Source of the DNA: Prosthecobacter sp.
GTDB lineage: Bacteria > Verrucomicrobiota > Verrucomicrobiia > Verrucomicrobiales > Verrucomicrobiaceae
Assembly (NCBI GenBank): GCA_021733925.1
Contig: JAIPJY010000033.1
Coordinates: 1 to 64,000, forward strand
Direction: 5' to 3'
Length of the DNA stretch: 64,000 bases
Both the position numbers and the translations under genes were made by a program. Of the stretch, positions 10,896-42,500 are shown in pieces. Numbering within the stretch: the first letter of the stretch is position 1; each line of letters starts with the position of its first letter. The notes beneath the pieces are model-generated. The model saw nothing but the letters and a program-made list of their open reading frames with translations. It had not been told where the DNA came from and made no database searches.

Positions 10896-13019
10896 TCAAG
10901 CCTTGGCCAAAAGGCGCGCTTTGCGCCGACGGCGGAGGGTCAGGACGGCAAGGCCCAGACTGCCCAGCAAGGCACGGGAGGGCTCAGGCACGGCGTCCAC
11001 ATGCAGCGTGAGTGAGCTGGCACCGATGGTGAACTGGCCGGCAAAGCCAGATGGCGTGGAACCGAAGGCAAGGTTGGAGAGAGACAGTCCGGAGACGGAG
11101 CTGTAATTCATCAGCGTGTAGTCCGAGCCCGAGGTCAGGCCATTGTTGAGGATGTCAAAAAGCGCGGTGCCTCCGCCCGTGAAGTTCAGCGAGCCGCCGA
11201 TGTTGAGCAGATCGGATGTGGTGCCGAGATCGAAGGCAAAGTGCGATCCGTCCATGATGTTGAGATTTCCATCAATGGTCAAGGTGCCCGGGCTGAGGCC
11301 GGGAGCGAGGGTGCCGCCGCTGGCGATGGAGACGTTTCCTGCAATGTCTCCCGTGCCATTCAGAGTTCCGGTGGAGTCAATGAAGACATCGCCCGAGCCG
11401 GTGGCGCTGCCGGTGGTGTTGGTGACACTCAGTGTGCCGCTGACGGTGGTGTTGCCGCTGTAGGTGCTGGCACCGGACAAAATGACGTTGCCGCTGGAGA
11501 TGTCCACGCTGCTGAAATTGGAGATCGCCCCTGCATAGCTGAAGGTGTTGCCTGCGCCTGGATCGAATTTGGCGGTGTTCGTGCCGGTGCCGCCGTCGAT
11601 GTCGCCTGTGATGGAACCTCCGGTGACGGTGAGCGTGTCATTGCCGCCTTGCAGGGCGATGGCTTTGCCGTTGTCTCCCGTGATGGTCCCAGCGTTGCTG
11701 AGGGTGTCGTTGCCATTGCCGGTTTGGATGGCGGCTCCGACAGTTAAAGCATCGCCTGCGCCGCGAATGGTCCCATCTGCATTGTTGGTGACGGTGTTGT
11801 CAAAGGTGCTGATCATCTGGATTGCGTAGCCGGTCGTGCCCCGGATGAGGCCGCTGTTGGTGATGCTGGTGGCAGCGAAGGCGTTGCCGGAGCTGGAGTT
11901 GTCCACCAAAATGCCATGACCCTCGATACCGGTGCCATCCAAGGCTCCGCCTGTGATCTCTGCTCCGGAGTAGTTGATGATCGTGCCTCCACCAATCGAA
12001 ACGCCTTCAGGATGGTTGGTCAAGGTGTCGGAGCCAACGCCATTGGCTCCAAGACCGCGGATGATGCCATGATTGTAAAGAGTGGTGATGCCGTCCACAT
12101 CGACGCCATCGCCGTCACCCACGTCGTAATGCGCACTGTCGTAATTGCCTGCAATGGTCCCATAGTTGGTGACCGTGGCGGAAGAGGAGGCTGCGGCGGC
12201 GCTGTTGTTGTCAATGTTGATGCCGGAGCCGTTCACGCCGGTGATGGTGCCGTCGACGTTGTTCGTCACGGTGATGTTGAATGAATTGACGGCGTCTGAG
12301 GCGGCACCTCCGGTGATGCCGTGGCGGCCGGAGATGGAGCCTCCATTGTTGTTGGTGATCTGAACCCCGGTGTTGGTCTGCGCATCGATGCCATCGCTGC
12401 TCGTGGCAGCAATCTGCGTCGTGACGGCGGTATCAACGATTGGCACAGCGAGGATGGAGCCATTGTTGACAATGGTGCCGTTCACGCCCGGACGCACGGC
12501 ATCCGCCGCCGTGGCTTTGAGCAGACCGGTGGAGTAGTTGGTGATGGTGGTCGTTCCGGAAGTGATGGCGGCGAGATCCAGCGCCTGTGCGCCTCCTGCT
12601 GAGGCATTGACGGAAATGATGCTGCCGTAGTTGTCCACCGTGACATTGTCGGAGGCCTTGTTGGCGCGGACGGTGTCAGAATCAGCGGACTGGATCAACG
12701 CACCAGCGTTGTTGGTGATGGCCATGGTGACGCTGGCCGTGTTGAGATCAATGGCCCTACCAGTTCCAGTCTGGCTGATGGTTCCGTTGTTCGTGATGCT
12801 GGCATTGTTACCCGTGACTGTGACGGCAACTGTTGCGCCGCTCACAGTGAGTGAGACGCCGCTGTTGACGGTGCCGGTTTGGCCGGAGCCGCTGCCCAGG
12901 GTCTGGGCGGTGGTGGAGTTGGAACTGATGACGAAGGTTGCCGCTTGAAGCGAGGCAACCGAGAGGAGGCTGGCAACCACAAGGGCGGCTGCGGAGATGT
13001 TGCGATGCTGAATTTTCAT
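10896..13019 (-). CDS. PEP-CTERM surface protein with autotransporter-type repeats
   Basis: A 707-residue exported protein. The ATG at 13019 opens into a signal peptide (MKIQHRNISAAALVVASLLSVASLQA); the longer frame to 13112 is not needed. The body is a Ser/Thr/Asn/Gly-rich beta-helix array with repeated ITNNGTI/VTNYGTI phrases, followed by an autotransporter-associated beta-strand repeat (GNVILSGASTYSGNTTVSG and GTGDIAGNVSIASGGTLAPGLSPG). The C-terminus is a PEP-CTERM sorting signal: VPEPS, a short hydrophobic helix, then RRRRKAR. No translocating beta-barrel is present, so export is probably by Sec plus exosortase, for which no gene is in the window. Its function is probably structural or adhesive. 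Confidence 0.88.
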   Translation of the reverse strand: MKIQHRNISAAALVVASLLSVASLQAATFVISSNSTTAQTLGSGSGQTGTVNSGVSLTVSGATVAVTVTGNNASITNNGTISQTGTGRAIDLNTASVTMAITNNAGALIQSADSDTVRANKASDNVTVDNYGSIISVNASAGGAQALDLAAITSGTTTITNYSTGLLKATAADAVRPGVNGTIVNNGSILAVPIVDTAVTTQIAATSSDGIDAQTNTGVQITNNNGGSISGRHGITGGAASDAVNSFNITVTNNVDGTITGVNGSGINIDNNSAAAASSSATVTNYGTIAGNYDSAHYDVGDGDGVDVDGITTLYNHGIIRGLGANGVGSDTLTNHPEGVSIGGGTIINYSGAEITGGALDGTGIEGHGILVDNSSSGNAFAATSITNSGLIRGTTGYAIQMISTFDNTVTNNADGTIRGAGDALTVGAAIQTGNGNDTLSNAGTITGDNGKAIALQGGNDTLTVTGGSITGDIDGGTGTNTAKFDPGAGNTFSYAGAISNFSSVDISSGNVILSGASTYSGNTTVSGTLSVTNTTGSATGSGDVFIDSTGTLNGTGDIAGNVSIASGGTLAPGLSPGTLTIDGNLNIMDGSHFAFDLGTTSDLLNIGGSLNFTGGGTALFDILNNGLTSGSDYTLMNYSSVSGLSLSNLAFGSTPSGFAGQFTIGASSLTLHVDAVPEPSRALLGSLGLAVLTLRRRRKARLLAKA

Positions 13020-13170
13020 GTTGGGGGGGCGAAAGCGCGCGCTTATGCGTGCGATGACAGCGGCTGTCGAAAGCCGCGGCGTTACGATTTCGCCTTGTGG
13101 CAATCCCGGCACACTGAGGGTGAAAATCCCGGACTCTGGCCGGCTCCAATATGGAAAAAACGTAACATGA

Positions 13171-22104: not shown

Positions 22105-22169
22105 GACGTCCACGTCTGACGGATGGAATTAGCGGTAGAATGACGGCATGGGCATCGTTGAGATGCAGC

Positions 22170-23768
22170 ATGATCCGACTGCCTATTTTCTTCCTGCTGT
22201 TCGTCTGCGCCACGCTGCAAGCTGCGCCATCGAAGCCGAATTTTGTCATCATTCTTGCGGATGATCTCGGCTATTCGGATCTGGGTTGTTATGGCAGTGA
22301 GATTGCGACGCCGAATCTGGACAAGCTGGCGGCGGGTGGGCTGAAGTTCACGCAGTTTTACAACACCGCACGCTGCTGGCCCACGCGCAGCGTGCTCATG
22401 ACCGGGCACTATGCGCAGCAGATCGGCATGGACCCGCAGTATGGCAAATTCCCGGCGTGGGTGCGCACGCTGCCGCAGCGCCTCGCGCCGCTGGGCTATC
22501 GCAGTTACCATTCGGGCAAGTGGCATGTGAACAATGCACCGCACGTCGTGGCGGATGGCGGATTCACGCATTCGTATTACGTGGCGCAGCAGGACAATCA
22601 TTTTCATCCCAAGAAGCATGAACTGGATGACCAGCCGCTGCCAGAGCCTGAAGGGGTGTGGTATTCGAGCATCGCGATTGCGGATCATGCGATCGACTTC
22701 CTCAAGGAGCACGCGCAGCAGCATGCAGGCGCACCGTTCTTCACCTATGTGGCCTTCACAGCCCCTCACTTTCCCGTTCAAGCACTGCCGGAGGACATTG
22801 CCAAATACAAGGACAGCTACACGAAGGGCTGGCCGACAACACGCGCAGCACGCTTCGAACGGCAGAAGCAGCTGGGCCTCATCTCGACGACCTTGTCCGA
22901 TCCTGAACCGCAGATCACCGCACCCAGCGGCAAGGAGAGCGATCTGGAAATCCTCGGCCCCGGCGAGACGCGGCATGCGGAGCCATGGGACAGCCTGACC
23001 GCTGAACAGAAGCAGTTTCAGGCCACGAAAGAGGCCATCCATGCGGCGATGATTGATCGCTTGGATCAGGAAGTGGGGCGCGTGATCGCACAGTTGAAGG
23101 CCATGAACGCCTACGAGGACACGCTCATCCTGTTTCTCTCGGACAACGGTGCGAGCGCGGAGATCATGGTGCGCGGACTCGGGCATGATAAAAACGCGCC
23201 GATGGGCGCGGCGGCATCCTATCTCTGCCTTGGACCCGGCGGATCGACGGTATCCAACACGCCCTTTCGTCGTCATAAAATATGGACGCATGAAGGTGGT
23301 ATCAGCACACCGTTCATCGCGCATTGGCCGCAGGGAATCAGTGGGAAGGGCGAGCTGCGGCACACACCGGGGCATGTCATCGACATCGTGCCCACGATTC
23401 TCGTGCTCGCCGGTGGTGACGTCACCGCCATGCCTGAGAACGCACCGCCGTATCCCGGGCGCAGTCTGGTGACCGCATTTGCAAAGGATGAGACGATCAG
23501 CCGCGACTTCCTGTTTTGGAATCACTCTGGAAATCGCGCACTGCGGGAAGGGGACTGGAAGATTGTCAGCGCCGCCGACAACGCCGATGCATGGGAACTT
23601 TATGACCTGAGCACAGACCGCGCGGAGTCGAACAACCTCGCTTCCAAGGAACCTGAGCGCGTGAAGGCGATGGCCGAACGCTGGGAGAAACTGGAGAAGG
23701 AATACGTCGCACAAGCCGGGCCGAAACCCGCAGGCAAGACGAAGAAGGGAAAGGGCAAAAAGGAATAG
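22170..23768 (+). CDS. Secreted arylsulfatase-family protein
   Basis: A 532-residue sulfatase. The ATG at 22170 gives a clean signal peptide (IRLPIFFLLFVCATLQA); an earlier ATG-rich stretch to 22140 adds only a weak N-terminus. The core begins PNFVIILADDLGYSDLGCYG, with the formylglycine motif CWPTR and its cysteine at residue 69 (Cys-x-Pro-Thr-Arg), then HSGKWH and FLSDNGAS. It ends in a Lys-rich tail (KTKKGKGKKE). This is the S1 arylsulfatase type; the glycan substrate is not predictable from sequence. It follows the gyrA terminator as an independent unit and converges with the PaaK-like gene. Confidence 0.9.
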   Translation: MIRLPIFFLLFVCATLQAAPSKPNFVIILADDLGYSDLGCYGSEIATPNLDKLAAGGLKFTQFYNTARCWPTRSVLMTGHYAQQIGMDPQYGKFPAWVRTLPQRLAPLGYRSYHSGKWHVNNAPHVVADGGFTHSYYVAQQDNHFHPKKHELDDQPLPEPEGVWYSSIAIADHAIDFLKEHAQQHAGAPFFTYVAFTAPHFPVQALPEDIAKYKDSYTKGWPTTRAARFERQKQLGLISTTLSDPEPQITAPSGKESDLEILGPGETRHAEPWDSLTAEQKQFQATKEAIHAAMIDRLDQEVGRVIAQLKAMNAYEDTLILFLSDNGASAEIMVRGLGHDKNAPMGAAASYLCLGPGGSTVSNTPFRRHKIWTHEGGISTPFIAHWPQGISGKGELRHTPGHVIDIVPTILVLAGGDVTAMPENAPPYPGRSLVTAFAKDETISRDFLFWNHSGNRALREGDWKIVSAADNADAWELYDLSTDRAESNNLASKEPERVKAMAERWEKLEKEYVAQAGPKPAGKTKKGKGKKE

Positions 23769-23794
23769 GGAAGCCTGCGTGCCTGCTATTCCTT
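23760..23794. terminator. Bidirectional hairpin between convergent genes
   Basis: AAGGAATAG (23760-23768) and CTATTCCTT (23786-23794) form a perfect 9-bp stem around 17 nt. The arms are the last codons plus stop of the sulfatase and of the PaaK-like gene, both ending Lys-Glu-stop. There is no strong T-run. Confidence 0.4.
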
Positions 23795-25240
23795 GAAGGG
23801 AATGTTTTGCTCCACTTTGCCCGAGCGCGGGTCTCGATCCAGATGATGAACCAGAACGGCTTTGGCGCTGACTTTGCCGCAGCCGCCTTCGATCAGGCAT
23901 TGGCGGATGGAAGCTTCCAGCCGGGACTGGATATCGGCTGGATCGACACCGGGTTGTATGACAAAGCGGCCTTCGATGGAACTTGGGCCCGTTTGGCAAA
24001 ACTGGTAAGCGGCCACCAGTGGCTGGTGCTCCATGACCGAGAGAAACTTGGTGCCCACAAAAATCAATTTTTCAGGGGCATGAAAAGTGTAGGTCATGGC
24101 ACTGCGCCCGCTCAGTTGATGGATGACTTTGAACGGCCAGCCTGCGGGTGGCGGGCCAAGCCGAACCCTGTCATCAATGCGATAACGCAGCAGCGGCAGT
24201 GCTGTGTTGAACAGCGGAGTGACGAGGGCGTGATCGGAGAGAGTCTCGGGCGGGGCTTCCTGCTCGTTTGGATCCACCGCTTCAAAAACCGCCAGGTCTT
24301 CAAAGACAACCATGTGATCCATGCCTGACCACTGGCGGGCGATGCCAAGAGACTCGCCGCAGCCATAGCCATTCATTGGCTCAATGCCCCAGGCTTGTCT
24401 GCACAGGGAACGAATGCCTGGTGTCAGGCCATCGCCGCCCGTGGAGATGGCGCCACTTTCTGCGGGGAGTTCCAGCCGAAGCGTTCCGTCGAGCTTGGCT
24501 TGTGCGAGACGCCCGATCAGTGATGCATAACCAATCAGAACAGTGGGCTTCATCTCATGGAGTTGATCAATGATCTCCTGCCAGGGGGCGGTGACACTGA
24601 TTGGCCGGTAGTCACAAAAAAGTGAGCCAATCCATGGGCGTGTTTTCAGCAGGCTCGCTGACACGGATGGAGCCGAGGAGCAGATGAACGATGCTGCAAC
24701 TGGGCGTTTTTTAAACAACGGCAGCCTCGGCGTCGCAGCATTCTTTGTCGTGGGCGCAGTGCGGATGGCATGGGCAGCGTGATTCCAGTCCACCGATGTG
24801 ATGTCATTGGGAATGGCGAGGGCGGCGCCAGAGGTGCCGGAGGTCATGCTCACCATCCAGCGACCATGCATAAGCTTGCCCCAGTTATGCGGATTCTTTA
24901 GGTGCTGCTCAAGAGCGGCCCAGCGCAACCGTGGGTCTGGAACGATCTCATCCCAGTTCTCAACCAAAGCAGCTTTGGTAAGGACGGGAATGTCTGAGAG
25001 TGCGCAACGGTCGAGATCCAAGCCCGCCAGTTGACGACGGTAAAAAGGACTGGTGGCGAAAGCACGACGGGCAACTGAACGCCAGCGCCGCTCTTGAAGC
25101 GCGAGCATGTCGGAACGGCTCAGGCTCTGGGCATGACGGATAGACTTCGAAGCACGATAAAGATTCAACGTCCTGAGCATGGCTGTGATGTGCATCAACT
25201 TACGCAGTCTGCAAGAAGGAAGCCTGATGTGTTTCTTCAT
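23786..25240 (-). CDS. PaaK/CapK-type adenylate-forming ligase, paralog 1
   Basis: A 484-residue ANL-superfamily enzyme of the phenylacetate-CoA ligase / CapK branch. It has the phosphate-binding motif SMTSGTSGAAL (about residues 130-140), the A5-like NGYGCGES, the A7-like LLRYRIDDRV and a C-terminal glycine-lysine near RSGKVEQNI. Such enzymes activate a carboxylic acid with ATP as the adenylate and often pass it to CoA. It is about half identical by eye to the gene at 25908-27332. The two flank a LuxI/FeeM-like acyl synthase, so it may supply that enzyme's acyl donor (inference). Its start region faces the acyl synthase across 124 bp. Confidence 0.82.
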   Translation of the reverse strand: MKKHIRLPSCRLRKLMHITAMLRTLNLYRASKSIRHAQSLSRSDMLALQERRWRSVARRAFATSPFYRRQLAGLDLDRCALSDIPVLTKAALVENWDEIVPDPRLRWAALEQHLKNPHNWGKLMHGRWMVSMTSGTSGAALAIPNDITSVDWNHAAHAIRTAPTTKNAATPRLPLFKKRPVAASFICSSAPSVSASLLKTRPWIGSLFCDYRPISVTAPWQEIIDQLHEMKPTVLIGYASLIGRLAQAKLDGTLRLELPAESGAISTGGDGLTPGIRSLCRQAWGIEPMNGYGCGESLGIARQWSGMDHMVVFEDLAVFEAVDPNEQEAPPETLSDHALVTPLFNTALPLLRYRIDDRVRLGPPPAGWPFKVIHQLSGRSAMTYTFHAPEKLIFVGTKFLSVMEHQPLVAAYQFCQTGPSSIEGRFVIQPGVDPADIQSRLEASIRQCLIEGGCGKVSAKAVLVHHLDRDPRSGKVEQNIPFKE

Positions 25241-25297
25241 CGTGGGAGTGATGCACCACTTTATTCGTGCAATTTGAGCTCCTCGGTTTTAAACTGC

Positions 25298-25314
25298 CTG
25301 TGAGTTGAGAACAG
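25298..25314. promoter_or_regulatory. Weak lux-box-like dyad in the divergent spacer
   Basis: CTGT and ACAG are separated by 9 bases in CCTGTGAGTTGAGAACAGAC. LuxR sites usually have CTGT-N8 or N10-ACAG, so the fit is imperfect. It lies 51-67 bp before the acyl synthase ATG. Confidence 0.15.
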
Positions 25315-25364
25315 ACAACCACTGCTCCCCGTTGCCTTGCAACACGACTCTTTGTTCAACTACC

Positions 25365-25898
25365 ATGGTCAGAGAAATTGAATTCAATTCCCATCGCAAA
25401 ATCATCGAAGACTTTCGACGCGCATCCTATGGCGGCACCATCACCCATGTGCTGGATGAATTTGATGACGTGGCGCATCATTTTGCCCTGTTCGACAAAC
25501 GGGACAAAGTGCTGGGTGTCACGCGGGTTTTACGCAGTGATGAGGTGAAGCAGTTCGAAATGATGCGTGAATCGCAGTTGAAGGATCTGGTGCTGCCGCC
25601 GGCCAAGCTCAGTTTGGAGCTTTCACGCGCATGCACCATCAAGGGAAGTGCGGGCATTCATCTGCTGAGTCTGTGCATGGGCATCAATGATTATGCAGTC
25701 AAAAACAATGCGGAGTATCTGATCACCAAAACGGGGAAGCATCTGCTGTCCCTGTACCAGCATTTTGGTTTCACCACGTTTGGCCCGCCTTTTGTCTCGG
25801 ATTTCTTTGAGGATAAACGTCCCATTTATCCGATCATGTACCGCTGGACTGTCGTCAAAAGGGAGGAGCCTGAAGAGGAGGAGGTGCTGGTCTGGTGA
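25365..25898 (+). CDS. LuxI/FeeM-superfamily acyl synthase (GNAT fold)
   Basis: A 177-residue protein; ATG at 25365 was chosen because the upstream extension is not conserved-looking. It aligns with acyl-homoserine-lactone synthases and N-acyl amino acid synthases: LDEFD at residues 30-34 matches the D-x-x-D pair (D45 and D48 of LuxI-type enzymes), GVTRVL supplies the conserved arginine at 54, and ELSRAC at 85-90 supplies the Glu and Arg of the E-S-R motif. The LuxI Trp34 and Glu43 equivalents are missing, so it is not a standard AHL synthase. Members also include exosortase-associated acyltransferases. It probably joins an activated acyl group to an amine in the cytoplasm. It converges with one ligase and diverges from the other. 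Confidence 0.78.
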   Translation: MVREIEFNSHRKIIEDFRRASYGGTITHVLDEFDDVAHHFALFDKRDKVLGVTRVLRSDEVKQFEMMRESQLKDLVLPPAKLSLELSRACTIKGSAGIHLLSLCMGINDYAVKNNAEYLITKTGKHLLSLYQHFGFTTFGPPFVSDFFEDKRPIYPIMYRWTVVKREEPEEEEVLVW

Positions 25899-25907
25899 GG
25901 TTCTGCT

Positions 25908-27332
25908 TCAGTCGGCCTCAAGCTGGCTGTGCAAAGGGAGTGGGATGAATTGCTGGAGCTTGCCCGAATGTGGGTCAGGCTCAATAAACGGCACCGCATG
26001 AGCGGCGATTGTCACCTTGTCACAGCCGCACGAATTCAGGTGGACACGCATATTGCGCAGTATTTCGGACGTGAGCTGCGCCACATCTGTTCCAGGCACA
26101 GGCATGCACAAACATTCCACACTGGAAGGACTGGTCTGGCGGGCCTGCCAGTTGATCACACGCGGATCGGTTTCGTGAATGCCAAAGACGTTCATCCCAA
26201 CGATGACATGCTCTTCCGGTGTGTGGAAGGTGAAGGTCATGGCGCTGCGTCCAATGATTTTGTCGATGCTTCTGAATGGCCAGTTTGCGTGCACCGGTCC
26301 GAGCCGGACACGGTCATTCAGACGATAGCGCAATAATGGAAAAGCACGGTTGATGAGCGGTGTGATCAGTACGTGGTCTGAAATTTCACCTTCGGGCACG
26401 GGTTGATCCTGTGCATCGACCGCCTCGAAAGCGGTCAGATCTTCCAGGAGCATGAGTTGATCAACCCCTTGCCACTGGCGTGCTATCGCAGGCGATTCAC
26501 CACTGCCGTAACCGTCCAGCGGTTGCAGATGAAATGCCTGCTGACACATCGAACGAATCCCCGGTGCCAAGACGTCGCCACCTGTCGAGATGCTCGATCC
26601 TGGCACGGTGAAATCCAGTTGGAGCCTGCCGTCAAGCTGCGCCCTGGCGAGGCGCTCGAGTATGGAGGCATAGCAGATGAGGACATTGGGTTTGAGCTTG
26701 TTGAGGCGCTGCAGAATGTCCGGCCATGAGGCCCCTGCATCTATGGCGTGGTGACTGCTAAACAAGGCTCCAATCCAAGGCCTGGTGTGAAACAGTGCTG
26801 CCGAAGCCGACGGCGCGGTTTCCCAGATGAAGGCCGCCATGCGTGGCCTGCGCTGAAAGGGGCTCCAGGTCAAAGGCTTGTGGCTCGTGGCAGTGGTGCC
26901 GTTGCGCGCAGCATGCACGGCATGCAGCCAGTCCACCGATTCCACGTCATGAGGTGTTATAATGGGGATGCCTGAAGTGCCCGAAGTTTGGCAGACCAGC
27001 CAGCGGCCTTTGAGGCGTCGGTTCCAATTGGCCGGATTTTCCAAATGCTTTTCCAAGGCCGCACGGCGCAGGCAAGGTTCCGCAACGATGTCATCCCAGT
27101 GCTCGACAAGCATGGATTTTGTCAGCGGTGGAATGTCTGCCAGTGAGCAGCGATCCACATCGACTCCAGCCAGGTGGTGACGATAAAACGAGCTCGTCTT
27201 CAGCGCATAACGAGCAAGTTCACGCCATCGACTTTCCTGCAACGCCAGCAGTTCGCCTCGCGTCATTGCTTGTGCGCGGCGCAGGGAACTGCGTGCGCGA
27301 ATCAGAGTCCTCAATCGAATCACTAAATCCAA
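25908..27332 (-). CDS. PaaK/CapK-type adenylate-forming ligase, paralog 2
   Basis: A 474-residue paralog of the gene at 23786-25240, with the same motifs in order: SFYRHHLAGVDVDRCSL near residue 47, CQTSGTSGIPI as phosphate loop, DGYGSGESPAIARQW, LLRYRLNDRVRLGP and a C-terminal HSGKLQQFI lysine. ATP-dependent activation of an acyl or aryl acid is the family reaction; the acid is unknown. The start is TTG at 27332 or GTG at 27323, since no in-frame ATG lies near the conserved N-terminus. Its stop is 9 bp from the acyl synthase stop. The duplicated pair with an intervening acyltransferase is unusual. Confidence 0.82.
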   Translation of the reverse strand: MDLVIRLRTLIRARSSLRRAQAMTRGELLALQESRWRELARYALKTSSFYRHHLAGVDVDRCSLADIPPLTKSMLVEHWDDIVAEPCLRRAALEKHLENPANWNRRLKGRWLVCQTSGTSGIPIITPHDVESVDWLHAVHAARNGTTATSHKPLTWSPFQRRPRMAAFIWETAPSASAALFHTRPWIGALFSSHHAIDAGASWPDILQRLNKLKPNVLICYASILERLARAQLDGRLQLDFTVPGSSISTGGDVLAPGIRSMCQQAFHLQPLDGYGSGESPAIARQWQGVDQLMLLEDLTAFEAVDAQDQPVPEGEISDHVLITPLINRAFPLLRYRLNDRVRLGPVHANWPFRSIDKIIGRSAMTFTFHTPEEHVIVGMNVFGIHETDPRVINWQARQTSPSSVECLCMPVPGTDVAQLTSEILRNMRVHLNSCGCDKVTIAAHAVPFIEPDPHSGKLQQFIPLPLHSQLEAD

Positions 27333-27368: not shown

Positions 27369-27917
27369 TCACTGCTTCATGCCACCGATCTTGCAGCCCT
27401 GCGCCTCAGGATGTGGTGAGGGAACCGCCTTGCCCGCAAGGATGGCATCAAGCGCGTCGCGGAGGTCCTGCGTGGTGGCGGCGCGCTGACGCTTGGTGGG
27501 GCCGAGGTAGAGGTCGTTGATGCGGCCTTTGTAAAGCGTCTCCGCTTTGGGTGACAGGACCACCACCTCCGGCGTGATTTTGGCCTGCACCTGCTTGGCC
27601 AGCGCCTGTTCTTTGTCGAGCAGCACGGTGGCTTTGAACTCCGAGAGGATGGCATGCTCCATCGCCACTTCATTCGTGATCTCCGGATCGGAGTGCACGA
27701 GGTAAACGACGACGCGGTCGCTGTAATCGGCGGTGATCTGGTTGATCTCCTTCATGAACGACTTGGTGGTCGGGCAGAACGGCGAGACGAAAAAGAGCAC
27801 GACCGCTTTCTTCTCCCCTGTGATCAACGGATCATAGCTCTTGCCGTCGGTAGCCGGCAGTTCGAGCGCGGCAGCGAAGCCGGTGAACAGCAGTGAAAAG
27901 AGAAGCAGCCAGCGCAT
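27369..27917 (-). CDS. Exported thioredoxin-fold (redoxin-like) protein
   Basis: A 182-residue protein with signal peptide MRWLLLFSLLFTGFAAALE and a redoxin core (VVLFFVSPFCPTTKSFMKEINQITADY). The active-site area keeps one cysteine (CPTT, not CxxC), and another cysteine lies near the end (GCKIG). It resembles AhpC/TlpA-family redoxins that often occur beside membrane or haem proteins in this phylum. Its start follows the fabD stop by four bases, so it is probably co-transcribed. An oxidoreductase role is possible but unproven. Confidence 0.75.
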   Translation of the reverse strand: MRWLLLFSLLFTGFAAALELPATDGKSYDPLITGEKKAVVLFFVSPFCPTTKSFMKEINQITADYSDRVVVYLVHSDPEITNEVAMEHAILSEFKATVLLDKEQALAKQVQAKITPEVVVLSPKAETLYKGRINDLYLGPTKRQRAATTQDLRDALDAILAGKAVPSPHPEAQGCKIGGMKQ

Positions 27918-27921
27918 GAGC

Positions 27922-28845
27922 TTATAGCAGTTGAGCCACCGCCGCATCCAGAGAAGCCGCATCCTTGATGCTGATGACCTTCACGGATTTGTCGATCTTG
28001 CCCATGAGTCCGGCGAGGGTGGCGTCTGGGCCGAGTTCGATGAAGGTGGTGTGGCCTGCTGCGATGAGATGCTGCATGCTTTCCACCCAGCGGACGCTGC
28101 CGGTGACCTGGCTGGTGAGCGTGGAGCGAATTTCTTCGGGTGTGGAAACAGGCCGTGCCTCGAAGTTGCAGATGACGGGAACGCTCGGGCTTTGAATGGA
28201 CGCAGAGGCAAGGGCCACGGCGAGTTTGTCCTGCGCGGTCTTCATCAAACGGCTGTGGTAGGCACCGGCGACGGGCAGGGGAATGGCGCGCTTGATGCCT
28301 TTGTCCTTGGATTTGGCGGCTGCATCGGCAATGCCTTCGGCGCTGCCGCTGAGCACGATCTGGCCGGGGGCGTTGAGATTGGCGACGTCCACATCGCACT
28401 CCTGGGCGAGTTCGCGGATGGCGGATTCCTCACCGCCGAGCAGTGCGAGCATGGCCCCCTTGGTGTTTTCGCAGGCTTCTTCCATGAAACTGCCGCGCTG
28501 AAAGACGAGGTTGAGGCCGGTGGCGAAGTCGAAGGTGCCAGCGGCGGCGTGTGCGGTGAATTCACCGAGGGAAAGACCCGCCGTGGCGGTGATGTTGAGC
28601 GCCGGGACCTTGCTCTTCAGCACTTCGAGGATGGCCAGACCGTGGGCATAGAGAGCAGGCTGGCAGCGGGATGTCTTGGTCAGTTCCTCCATCGGGCCTT
28701 CAAACATGATGTTTGAGAGCGAGTAGCCAAGGGTGGCATCGGCCTGGTCAAAGAGGGCGCGGACGGTGGGATAGCTTTCGGCAAGATCTTTGCCCATGCC
28801 GACTTTTTGGGCGCCTTGACCGGCGAAAAGGAGAACTGCGTTCAT
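27922..28845 (-). CDS. fabD: Malonyl-CoA:ACP S-malonyltransferase
   Basis: FabD (307 residues) moves malonyl from CoA to acyl carrier protein to start fatty-acid elongation. The N-terminus is the classical LLFAGQGAQKVGMGKDLAE, the nucleophile is Ser92 in GLSLGEF (normally GHSLG), and the catalytic histidine lies in GAYHSRLM. ATG at 28845 gives this N-terminus; the frame open to 28911 reads through a repeat. It lies downstream of glycerate kinase with an 81-bp spacer holding a GGATACT repeat. No other fab gene is nearby. Confidence 0.94.
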   Translation of the reverse strand: MNAVLLFAGQGAQKVGMGKDLAESYPTVRALFDQADATLGYSLSNIMFEGPMEELTKTSRCQPALYAHGLAILEVLKSKVPALNITATAGLSLGEFTAHAAAGTFDFATGLNLVFQRGSFMEEACENTKGAMLALLGGEESAIRELAQECDVDVANLNAPGQIVLSGSAEGIADAAAKSKDKGIKRAIPLPVAGAYHSRLMKTAQDKLAVALASASIQSPSVPVICNFEARPVSTPEEIRSTLTSQVTGSVRWVESMQHLIAAGHTTFIELGPDATLAGLMGKIDKSVKVISIKDAASLDAAVAQLL

Positions 28846-40378: not shown

Positions 40379-40597
40379 TCAATTCACAACCCCGCCCAGC
40401 ATCTCCCCATATGAGAAGTCGCTGACGTACAAGCTGACTCGTACGGCGGCGCCTTCCTCCAGTGGAAAGTCAGGCAGTTCCTTCTGGATGGTGCCGAAGA
40501 TTTCTTTGCCATTCGGCAGCACCGCATGGCAGGTGCGTGGGCTGAGCACACGACGAATCGTGGCCACGGTTTCAACTCGGTGGGCGATCTCCATCAC
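40379..40597 (-). CDS. IF-1-like (S1/OB-fold) small protein
   Basis: A 72-residue protein resembling translation initiation factor IF-1 by pattern: RVLSPRTCHAVLPNGKEIFGTI, GAAVRVSLYVSDFSYGEML, against IF-1's LPNTMFRVELENGHVV and GDKVTVELTPYDLSKGRIV. It is probably an OB-fold RNA-binding protein, a divergent IF-1 paralog and not the housekeeping factor. It is the last gene of a minus-strand operon; its ATG overlaps the stop of the S41-like gene by four bases. The same operon has thiD. Confidence 0.65.
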   Translation of the reverse strand: MMEIAHRVETVATIRRVLSPRTCHAVLPNGKEIFGTIQKELPDFPLEEGAAVRVSLYVSDFSYGEMLGGVVN

Positions 40598-41691
40598 TTC
40601 GTCACGGGAATGGCACGGCGTGCCGGGGGTTCATTGCTGACAGGAGCCTTCTGCTTCCAGTCGATCTTCGCGGATTGAAACAAGGTGCGTGCTGTGATGA
40701 GGTCCACCGCACGTTGCAGCACGGTATCCGAGGGCTTCCGCTCATCCTCCGGCAGGGCTTGACCGGCGGAACGCTTGAGATAGGAATCGAGTTCGGGATT
40801 GGTGTTCGCGACGAGTGCGGCTTCGTTGAAGCGCGGGCGCGGCTTGTCGATGATCGAGCTTTTCACGTCCGCTGCATCAGTGGAGTGATACACCTGGCGT
40901 TTGAGACTGGTCAGCATGGAGATCGGGAAATCAGGCTGCAGGCCCTTTTTAAACACCGAACTGTCGTCCTCCAGCAGTACCTCGGCACGGGCAAACCGCA
41001 GGGACCACTCGGCATCCACCGGCACTGTTTCATAGCGCACCGCTCCGCCGCGTGTGGGAGCGCCGATCAAGAGCGCCTGCTTCCGACGGCGCAGCACGGC
41101 GGCCATGGTTTCACCGAGGTTGTTGGTTTCATCATCGACGAGGACGAGCAGCTGCTGTGTCCACACGGGCTCGCGCGAATTCGTTTCGACCTCGGAGGAC
41201 GTCTGCCCCATCTGTTTCATTTTAAACAGCACTTCGCCCTTGGGCACAAAGAGGCTCAGCATGTCCGCCGCGTCATCAAAGTCCCCAGGCGGGGCCGGAC
41301 TGCGCAGGTCGAGGATGAGATATCCGACCTTCTTGCTCACAAAGTCACGCAGATGCTGTTCCAGTTCCTTCGTTTCGAGCTGTGTGAATTCACGCGGGCG
41401 AAGGTAGCCGATCTGCGGTGTGAGCAGCTCGGCCTGCACGCCCGTGCGTGCGCCGGATTTGGCTTCACTCGTGCGCGGCACCAGTTCGGCACCGAAATCA
41501 AGACGCTGTAGCAGACCAGAAAGGGCGGCACGGTTCAGCACATCAAATGTCAGGTCGCTGCTGCGGATGTATTCCTTCTGGAGAATGCGAAACGCCGTCT
41601 GAATCCCTGCCTGGCTGACATCCTTCGTCTCCGTGCTGCTGGCGGCAAACACGGAGGAGGTGAAAGTCAAAAAGAGGGCGAGTCGTCTCAT
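40594..41691 (-). CDS. Exported S41 (CtpA)-like protein, catalytic residues lost
   Basis: A 365-residue protein with signal peptide MRRLALFLTFTSSVFA. It keeps the S41 fold pattern: LILDLRSPAPPGDFDDAADMLSLFVPKGEV corresponds to the LILDLRGNPGG...FLPKG block of C-terminal processing proteases. The nucleophile segment, normally SASASE, reads TNNLGE, and the later TFGKG lysine segment reads TRGGA, so both Ser and Lys of the dyad are absent. It is therefore probably a non-proteolytic relative that binds peptide or partners. No PDZ domain is obvious. It is coupled by ATGA overlaps with thiD upstream and the IF-1-like gene downstream. Confidence 0.8.
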   Translation of the reverse strand: MRRLALFLTFTSSVFAASSTETKDVSQAGIQTAFRILQKEYIRSSDLTFDVLNRAALSGLLQRLDFGAELVPRTSEAKSGARTGVQAELLTPQIGYLRPREFTQLETKELEQHLRDFVSKKVGYLILDLRSPAPPGDFDDAADMLSLFVPKGEVLFKMKQMGQTSSEVETNSREPVWTQQLLVLVDDETNNLGETMAAVLRRRKQALLIGAPTRGGAVRYETVPVDAEWSLRFARAEVLLEDDSSVFKKGLQPDFPISMLTSLKRQVYHSTDAADVKSSIIDKPRPRFNEAALVANTNPELDSYLKRSAGQALPEDERKPSDTVLQRAVDLITARTLFQSAKIDWKQKAPVSNEPPARRAIPVTK

Positions 41692-42500
41692 GTGTCGGTC
41701 TGCTGGAGATGATTGAGAGCATGTACGGGGCCTGCGCCAGCACTTTGCCACATGAAATGCTGGGCGATGGCCCGACTGACAAACTCCTTGGCTGTCGCGA
41801 CGGCATCATTCAGGCCCATTTCATACGCCAGACCGGTGGCGATGGCGGCGGAAAACGTGCAGCCCGTGCCATGCGTGCGCACCCCCGGCGTGCGTGGGGC
41901 GGTGTGCCAGAAAAGCTCGCTGTTCAGGCAGAGGACATCGGCGGCGTCTCCCTGCAGGTGCCCGCCTTTGACCAGCACGGCGGCATCAAAACGCTCGCTC
42001 AGTTCAAGGGCGCAGGCCTCCATGGCTTCGGTGTCGGGGACCTCGCGATCCCACAGCACGCGGGCTTCGTCCAGATTCGGCGTGATAAGCGAGGCAAGCG
42101 GAAGCAGTTCGTCGATCAGGGTGCGCACGGCGGCGTCTTCGAGCAGTTTGCCGCCACTGGTGGCGATCATGACCGGGTCAACGACCAAGGGGATGAGCCC
42201 ATGGCCGAACTGCAGCCAGGTTTTGGCCACCGCCTTCACCTGATCCCGACCGCCGAGCATGCCCGTCTTCGCAGCGGCAATCGGGAAGCCGCCAAACAGC
42301 ACACGGATCTGATCTTCAATGAACTCCGCATCCATTAAGCGCACCTGCGAAACGAGGCCGGGCGTCTCAGAAACCACACCCGTCAGCGCATTCAAGCCGT
42401 AGCCGCCGAGGGCTGAAATGGCCTTCAAATCCGCCTGCACCCCCGCTCCGCATGAAGAATCTGAACCTGCAATGGTGAGTACGACGGGAGGGGAGGACAT
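41688..42500 (-). CDS. thiD: Hydroxymethylpyrimidine/phosphomethylpyrimidine kinase
   Basis: ThiD (270 residues) phosphorylates HMP and HMP-phosphate in thiamine synthesis. The N-terminal motif VLTIAGSDSSCGAGVQADLKA starts about residue 7, ALGGYGLNALTGVVSE follows, and the C-terminal anion-hole motif is THGTGCTFSAAIA. ATG at 42500 was chosen for this N-terminus; the frame extends to 42722 without family similarity. No TPP riboswitch was seen upstream. It leads the operon with the S41-like and IF-1-like genes and is divergent from apaG. Confidence 0.93.
   Translation of the reverse strand: MSSPPVVLTIAGSDSSCGAGVQADLKAISALGGYGLNALTGVVSETPGLVSQVRLMDAEFIEDQIRVLFGGFPIAAAKTGMLGGRDQVKAVAKTWLQFGHGLIPLVVDPVMIATSGGKLLEDAAVRTLIDELLPLASLITPNLDEARVLWDREVPDTEAMEACALELSERFDAAVLVKGGHLQGDAADVLCLNSELFWHTAPRTPGVRTHGTGCTFSAAIATGLAYEMGLNDAVATAKEFVSRAIAQHFMWQSAGAGPVHALNHLQQTDT

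Follow-up and report, generated by a model that had tools for sequence, protein, structure and literature searches.

A FeeM-like acyl synthase gene paired with PaaK-like ligase genes in an optional genomic island of Prosthecobacter

We analyzed a 64,000-nucleotide stretch of DNA from a Prosthecobacter genome (contig JAIPJY010000033.1; hereafter the window), in which a small plus-strand gene for a FeeM-like acyl synthase of 177 aa (AS; 25365 to 25898) lies between two minus-strand genes for PaaK-like adenylate-forming ligases, LIG1 (23786 to 25180) and LIG2 (25908 to 27332). With a probability of roughly 0.53, this trio is a small optional biosynthetic island whose FeeM-like N-acyltransferase and acid-activating ligases share one pathway. 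If so, a synthase tied to acid-activating ligases would hint at a natural-product route in Verrucomicrobia, and the island may yield a small molecule or lipid with an amide link that is so far undescribed. Open reading frames were confirmed where an earlier note on this DNA had placed the three genes, with the start of LIG1 set by homologues near 25180 and not at 25240, to which its reading frame extends. Purifying selection acts on each of the three: comparison with orthologues gave nonsynonymous-to-synonymous ratios (pN/pS) of 0.09-0.20 for AS (six comparisons), 0.18-0.25 for LIG1 (six) and 0.25-0.27 for LIG2 (three), values that are rough because synonymous divergence is high (dS 0.67-1.9), and the same comparisons revealed no internal stops. 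Since LIG1 and AS are divergent and AS and LIG2 convergent, the trio does not form one operon or transcript; the intergenic region between LIG1 and AS (25181 to 25364) is poorly conserved, with no obvious conserved operator across seven orthologous loci.

The case for a shared pathway comes from the pairing of AS with ligases at two unlinked sites, which we call type I (orthologues of the window locus) and type II (the second site). The genome of the window (G000) carries a second AS on contig C99, 46% identical to the first, with a third ligase (58% identical to LIG1) 2.4 kb away. Six genomes (G000, G001, G020, G027, G029 and G030) have such a type II locus, in which a zinc-type alcohol dehydrogenase separates a ligase from an AS; five of these loci, all except that of G001, also hold an orphan protein in one or two copies. 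In G011, G012 and G446 the type II site has the dehydrogenase, the orphan protein and AS, with the ligase absent there; G022 has two ligases at this site and its AS about 60 kb off; G008 and G004 have the dehydrogenase and orphan protein there without AS, and G008 additionally encodes a lone divergent AS (type III). The full-length AS genes number 18 (seven at type I loci, nine at type II sites, one in G022 and one of type III), and 13 of them have a ligase within 3.7 kb (type I 7/7, type II 6/9, others 0/2). The earlier note had proposed comparing gene neighborhoods, and within the genus AS homologues do sit beside PaaK-like ligases. When 35 genus genomes were searched for close ligases as well as for AS, nine had the former and 11 the latter, with all nine among the 11 (Fisher 8e-7, not corrected for kinship). 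In the trees the ligases form three clades (LIG1, LIG2 and type II) and the AS proteins two main ones, as would be expected from duplication of a ligase–AS pair.

Several observations weigh against a common pathway. The 13 pairings go back to two loci passed on by descent and do not count as 13 separate events; five of the 18 AS genes have no nearby ligase; and the genes are not an operon. The bracketing of AS by two ligases, correctly described for the window, is not conserved, being found in three of the seven type I loci (G000, G030 and G004), with a glycosyltransferase between AS and LIG2 in G030 and with both ligases belonging to the LIG2 clade in G004; in G008 both ligases lie on one side, and G001, G027 and G029 have LIG1 only. 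Other genes also enter both sites: a glycosyltransferase (3/7) or a methyltransferase (2/7) at type I, and at type II a DUF5685 protein in one case and a sulfatase in another. On these grounds AS and the ligases might be independent genes at two variable sites that collect lineage-specific genes, with no pathway in common, an explanation that we consider unlikely but the most probable of the alternatives. Against it, the same AS/ligase pairing is present at two unlinked sites and has persisted as identity fell to about 45% among AS and about 57% among the ligases, and close ligases were found in no AS-free genome among the 35 searched. Thus, the cooperation of three genes suggested by the earlier note is strengthened as regards AS with a ligase, whose pairing recurs at a second unlinked locus, and weakened as regards the two-sided arrangement.

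The trio is an optional island between fixed borders, present or absent within the genus. On the left it is bordered by a plus-strand sulfatase gene (22140 to 23768) and on the right by a minus-strand gene for a thioredoxin-like protein (27369 to 27962), the latter present in 37 of 48 genus genomes. In G002, G012 and G022 the matches to these two border genes end about 113, 67 and 52 bp apart, respectively, with the trio absent between them, and in G011 and G032 the thioredoxin-like gene has gyrA itself as its neighbor. AS was detected in 12 of the 48 genus genomes, with a further broken copy in G446, in none of 20 genomes from other genera of the family (E up to 1e-3), and, in a phylum sample of 387 genomes (E up to 1e-8; at most eight candidates scored per genome), in its own genome only. 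Beyond the phylum, AS was sought in a plasmid collection, where nothing matched at E up to 0.01, and by short peptide patterns that reach close relatives; these patterns located close orthologues in six named records, metagenome-assembled genomes called Prosthecobacter, Verrucomicrobiaceae or Verrucomicrobia. AS is, as found, genus-specific. A ligase profile run on the same 387 genomes (E up to 1e-60; at most four candidates scored in each) retrieved one further genome, G265, of the same family, with no AS match and no AS-like gene seen beside its ligase; G040, which has a ligase relative 27-29% identical, likewise gave no AS match.

AS belongs to PF13444 (Acetyltransf_5; 29.9 bits, E 9.6e-7, gathering cut-off 22.4), the only Pfam family that it matches at E up to 1. 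The closest solved fold to its predicted structure is that of FeeM (PDB 2g0b), with 159 residues aligned at only 16% identity, and FeeM tops both match lists; the structure prediction called for by the earlier note thus places AS, in overall fold, nearest to FeeM and not to an ordinary acetyltransferase. A profile built from the AS alignment gave a single match among PDB sequences, a methyltransferase at E 0.048, which we take as chance. Residues D31, F33, D34, R54, E85, S87 and R88 are invariant in 11 aligned homologues, so the key positions previously singled out as LuxI/FeeM-type hold, but the letters of the ELSR motif do not, with EVSR, EFSR, EGSR and others among the homologues. AS also differs from the acyl-homoserine lactone (AHL) synthases LasI, TofI, RpaI and BjaI: at E up to 1 the AHL-synthase Pfam family is not among its matches, its only tryptophans are W161 and W177, leaving none at the place of Trp34, and V29 stands (by eye) at the place of Glu43/44, where we presume the customary LuxI numbering. 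The lack of equivalents of LuxI Trp34 and Glu43 is therefore as first described. In its E-x-S-R sequence AS resembles LasI (E101, L102, S103, R104) and departs from FeeM, whose pocket has E94, V95, V96 and Q97, as listed in Table 1 of PMC9654057; that table prints 'Try32' for FeeM at about the place of LuxI Trp34. A conserved C-terminal tail and the adjoining PaaK-like ligases further set AS apart from FeeM. It is improbable that AS is an ordinary small GNAT acetylating a small metabolite or a protein, since FeeM heads both fold lists with 159 aligned residues, compared with 136-137 for the GNATs in those lists, and since Acetyltransf_5, its sole Pfam family, is also matched by an OlsF-like protein of the same genome.

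That OlsF-like protein introduces a reading somewhat less probable again, in which AS is the amino-acid N-acyltransferase of membrane aminolipids, equivalent to OlsB, and the ligases are bystanders. AS does match the OlsB ornithine N-acyltransferase model NF052554 (E 5e-6), but with a score of 26.4 bits where 350 are required. The type II site has an OlsE-like fatty acid hydroxylase gene (L032:14753-15652, plus strand; 338 bits, cut-off 475) next to it, and as such genes are found in 12/12 AS genomes compared with 13/36 AS-free genus genomes (Fisher 9e-5, inflated by relatedness), or 25 of 48 in all, this association counts against our proposal and makes an aminolipid product conceivable. However, of the 68 family genomes 31 have an OlsE-like gene and 19 of these 31 lack AS, and the window's genome, the only one checked, has its own OlsF-like bifunctional aminolipid synthase (L103:4485-6338, minus strand; 412 bits, below the cut-off of 620); for these two reasons we regard an ornithine-lipid product as unlikely. 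An exosortase connection finds no support: AS scores 17.5 bits against the 111.95 required by TIGR03694 (exosortase-associated acyltransferase), and the three exosortase-family genes of the genome lie elsewhere, on contigs C47, C43 and C39, with none on C51 or C99. The PEP-CTERM protein reported for the window is indeed there, as a PEP-CTERM-like protein with a visible motif, encoded at 10896-13112 and some 11 kb away from LIG1.

To return to the shared pathway, LIG1 and LIG2 bear out the description of two minus-strand ligases about half identical (50.9%) flanking AS, and they fall into separate clades. By sequence they appear to lie inside the PaaK-like ANL superfamily with no named equivalog. 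Neither has a Pfam match at E up to 1, and among the NCBIfam models compared (PaaK, DVU1553 and BagE/FevW) the PaaK-like matches are weak, at E 4e-15 for LIG1 and 2e-14 for LIG2, with best scores of 55.7 and 53.5 bits against a cut-off of 300; both match the BagE/FevW model below cut-off. The top PDB sequence matches of LIG1 are AjiA1 (E 7e-10), PaaK (phenylacetate-CoA ligase) and 6siw, a 'PaaK-like ligase' (E 6e-8) that we take to be NatL2, so that two ester- or amide-forming PaaK-like ligases, AjiA1 and NatL2, rank among the best. In an alignment of 12 genus ligases plus that of G040, Y272, G273, E276, R332, Y333, D337 and K455 are invariant in all 13 rows; relative to motifs to which we apply the presumed names P-loop, YGx[ST]E, RYRxxD and C-terminal Lys, the 12 genus rows have Gly or Ala, not the expected Ser or Thr, just before E276, and three of these rows show a changed P-loop. 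The G040 ligase (L067:7267-8649, minus strand) has CPC cysteines near RYRxxD, a CxC pair that we take to be the zinc pair of NatL2 and that is replaced in 12/12 genus rows. In NatL2 these are Cys308 and Cys310 (PMC7204872).

We infer that AS would couple an activated group, either acyl or aryl, to the amine on an amino acid or on an amino-lipid precursor, and that LIG1 and LIG2 would activate carboxylic acids by adenylation for the same pathway. FeeM-type synthases produce N-acyl amino acids, some of which are bioactive, and are defined by moving a long acyl chain from acyl carrier protein to an amino acid; a long-chain or aryl donor would be presumed for AS as well. The ligases may supply this acyl donor via a carrier protein or coenzyme A (CoA); alternatively, they may activate the free carboxylate of an N-acyl amino acid so that it can be coupled further, the order of steps thus being conjectural, and two diverged ligases could correspond to two acids or to two steps. 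The evidence leans to the CoA option, because the genus ligases keep the C-terminal Lys and, by eye, have no evident NatL2-type extension, their short C-terminus after K455 looking PaaK-like. The carboxylate-coupling option stays open because NatL2, a member of the PaaK family, makes an ester directly without CoA (PMC7204872). A partial likeness exists in the N-acyl tyrosine clusters of PMC12479983, where N-acyl amino acid synthase genes lie beside tailoring genes; in the two Pseudomonadota clusters described there the tailoring proteins are of the ThiF and nitroreductase families, unlike the ligases here, and the word 'ligase' is absent from the main text of that paper. A few searches of open-access literature brought up papers on FeeM-type synthases but none joining Verrucomicrobia, LuxI and AHL synthase, and no account of a ligase–FeeM pairing or of the AS tail, for which no dedicated search was made.

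The conserved AS tail is new here. It is a short, exactly defined element at the end of a low-confidence C-terminal segment, encoded with its stop codon at 25875 to 25898 on the plus strand and reading EEEVLVW. Trp ends 18/18 full-length AS proteins and EEEVLVW is found in 13/18, the variants being EEEVFVW, EEEVLCW, GEEVLVW, DDELLVW and DDSVFVW, and the linker between fold and tail varies in length. A degenerate DNA pattern for tail and stop gave 15 matches in the 48 genus genomes, all of them AS ends (14 full-length genes plus the remnant in G446), and the reversed pattern used as a control gave none; the four full-length AS genes that it missed carry the variants EEEVLCW, GEEVLVW, DDELLVW and DDSVFVW. 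The tail codons vary synonymously, and therefore selection acts on the protein. Because G011 and G012 retain the tail without close ligases, and G001 retains it without the orphan protein, we consider it unlikely to be a dock solely for either, although such docking may occur in other genomes. We would guess that it docks a general partner, such as a carrier protein or a protease, or serves self-regulation. Tentatively, and with the odds against so specific a scheme, these genus-specific FeeM-fold synthases may work through their own tail, which would dock an acyl-bringing carrier protein or a level-setting protease and thereby channel what the PaaK-like ligases produce into a new class of acyl- or aryl-amides in Verrucomicrobia. 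As a separate observation, the window also encodes a C-terminal processing peptidase-like protein at 40594-41751 (minus strand; TIGR00225, E 4e-19, below cut-off).

The orphan protein of the type II sites is about 390 aa long and occurs in 13/48 genus genomes, 11 of them with AS, and in 0/20 other family genomes. One copy, when scanned, gave no Pfam or NCBIfam match, and on reading its sequence we label it putatively FemAB-like; copies lie at L032:8506-10916 (minus), L034:5608-7961 (plus) and L038:8808-9983 (minus). In G011 a DUF5685 protein (PF18937, E 1e-15; L033:6845-7909, plus) is encoded between the orphan protein and AS. The additional type I genes mentioned above, glycosyltransferase or methyltransferase, are seen at L027:2992-4218, L026:10689-11348 and L029:10350-11009.

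In base composition, LIG1, AS and LIG2 have third-codon-position GC contents (GC3) of 0.62-0.63, against 0.73 (SD 0.05) for 40 window genes. Codon scores, obtained with a purpose-made gene caller, are lowest for LIG2, third-lowest for LIG1, which was inside the training set and would have had its score raised by this, and 13th lowest for AS. These values would fit gain from elsewhere and do not prove it. The neighboring FabD, histidine kinase and response regulator genes were rejected as island members because they hold the same place in island-free genomes, for example G002, G012 and G022. In G446 (L064:8348-9550) a remnant of AS (residues 81-177) abuts a remnant of LIG1 (residues 160-464), with the tail still readable, and it seems from the sequence that a single deletion took the 5′ parts of both genes.

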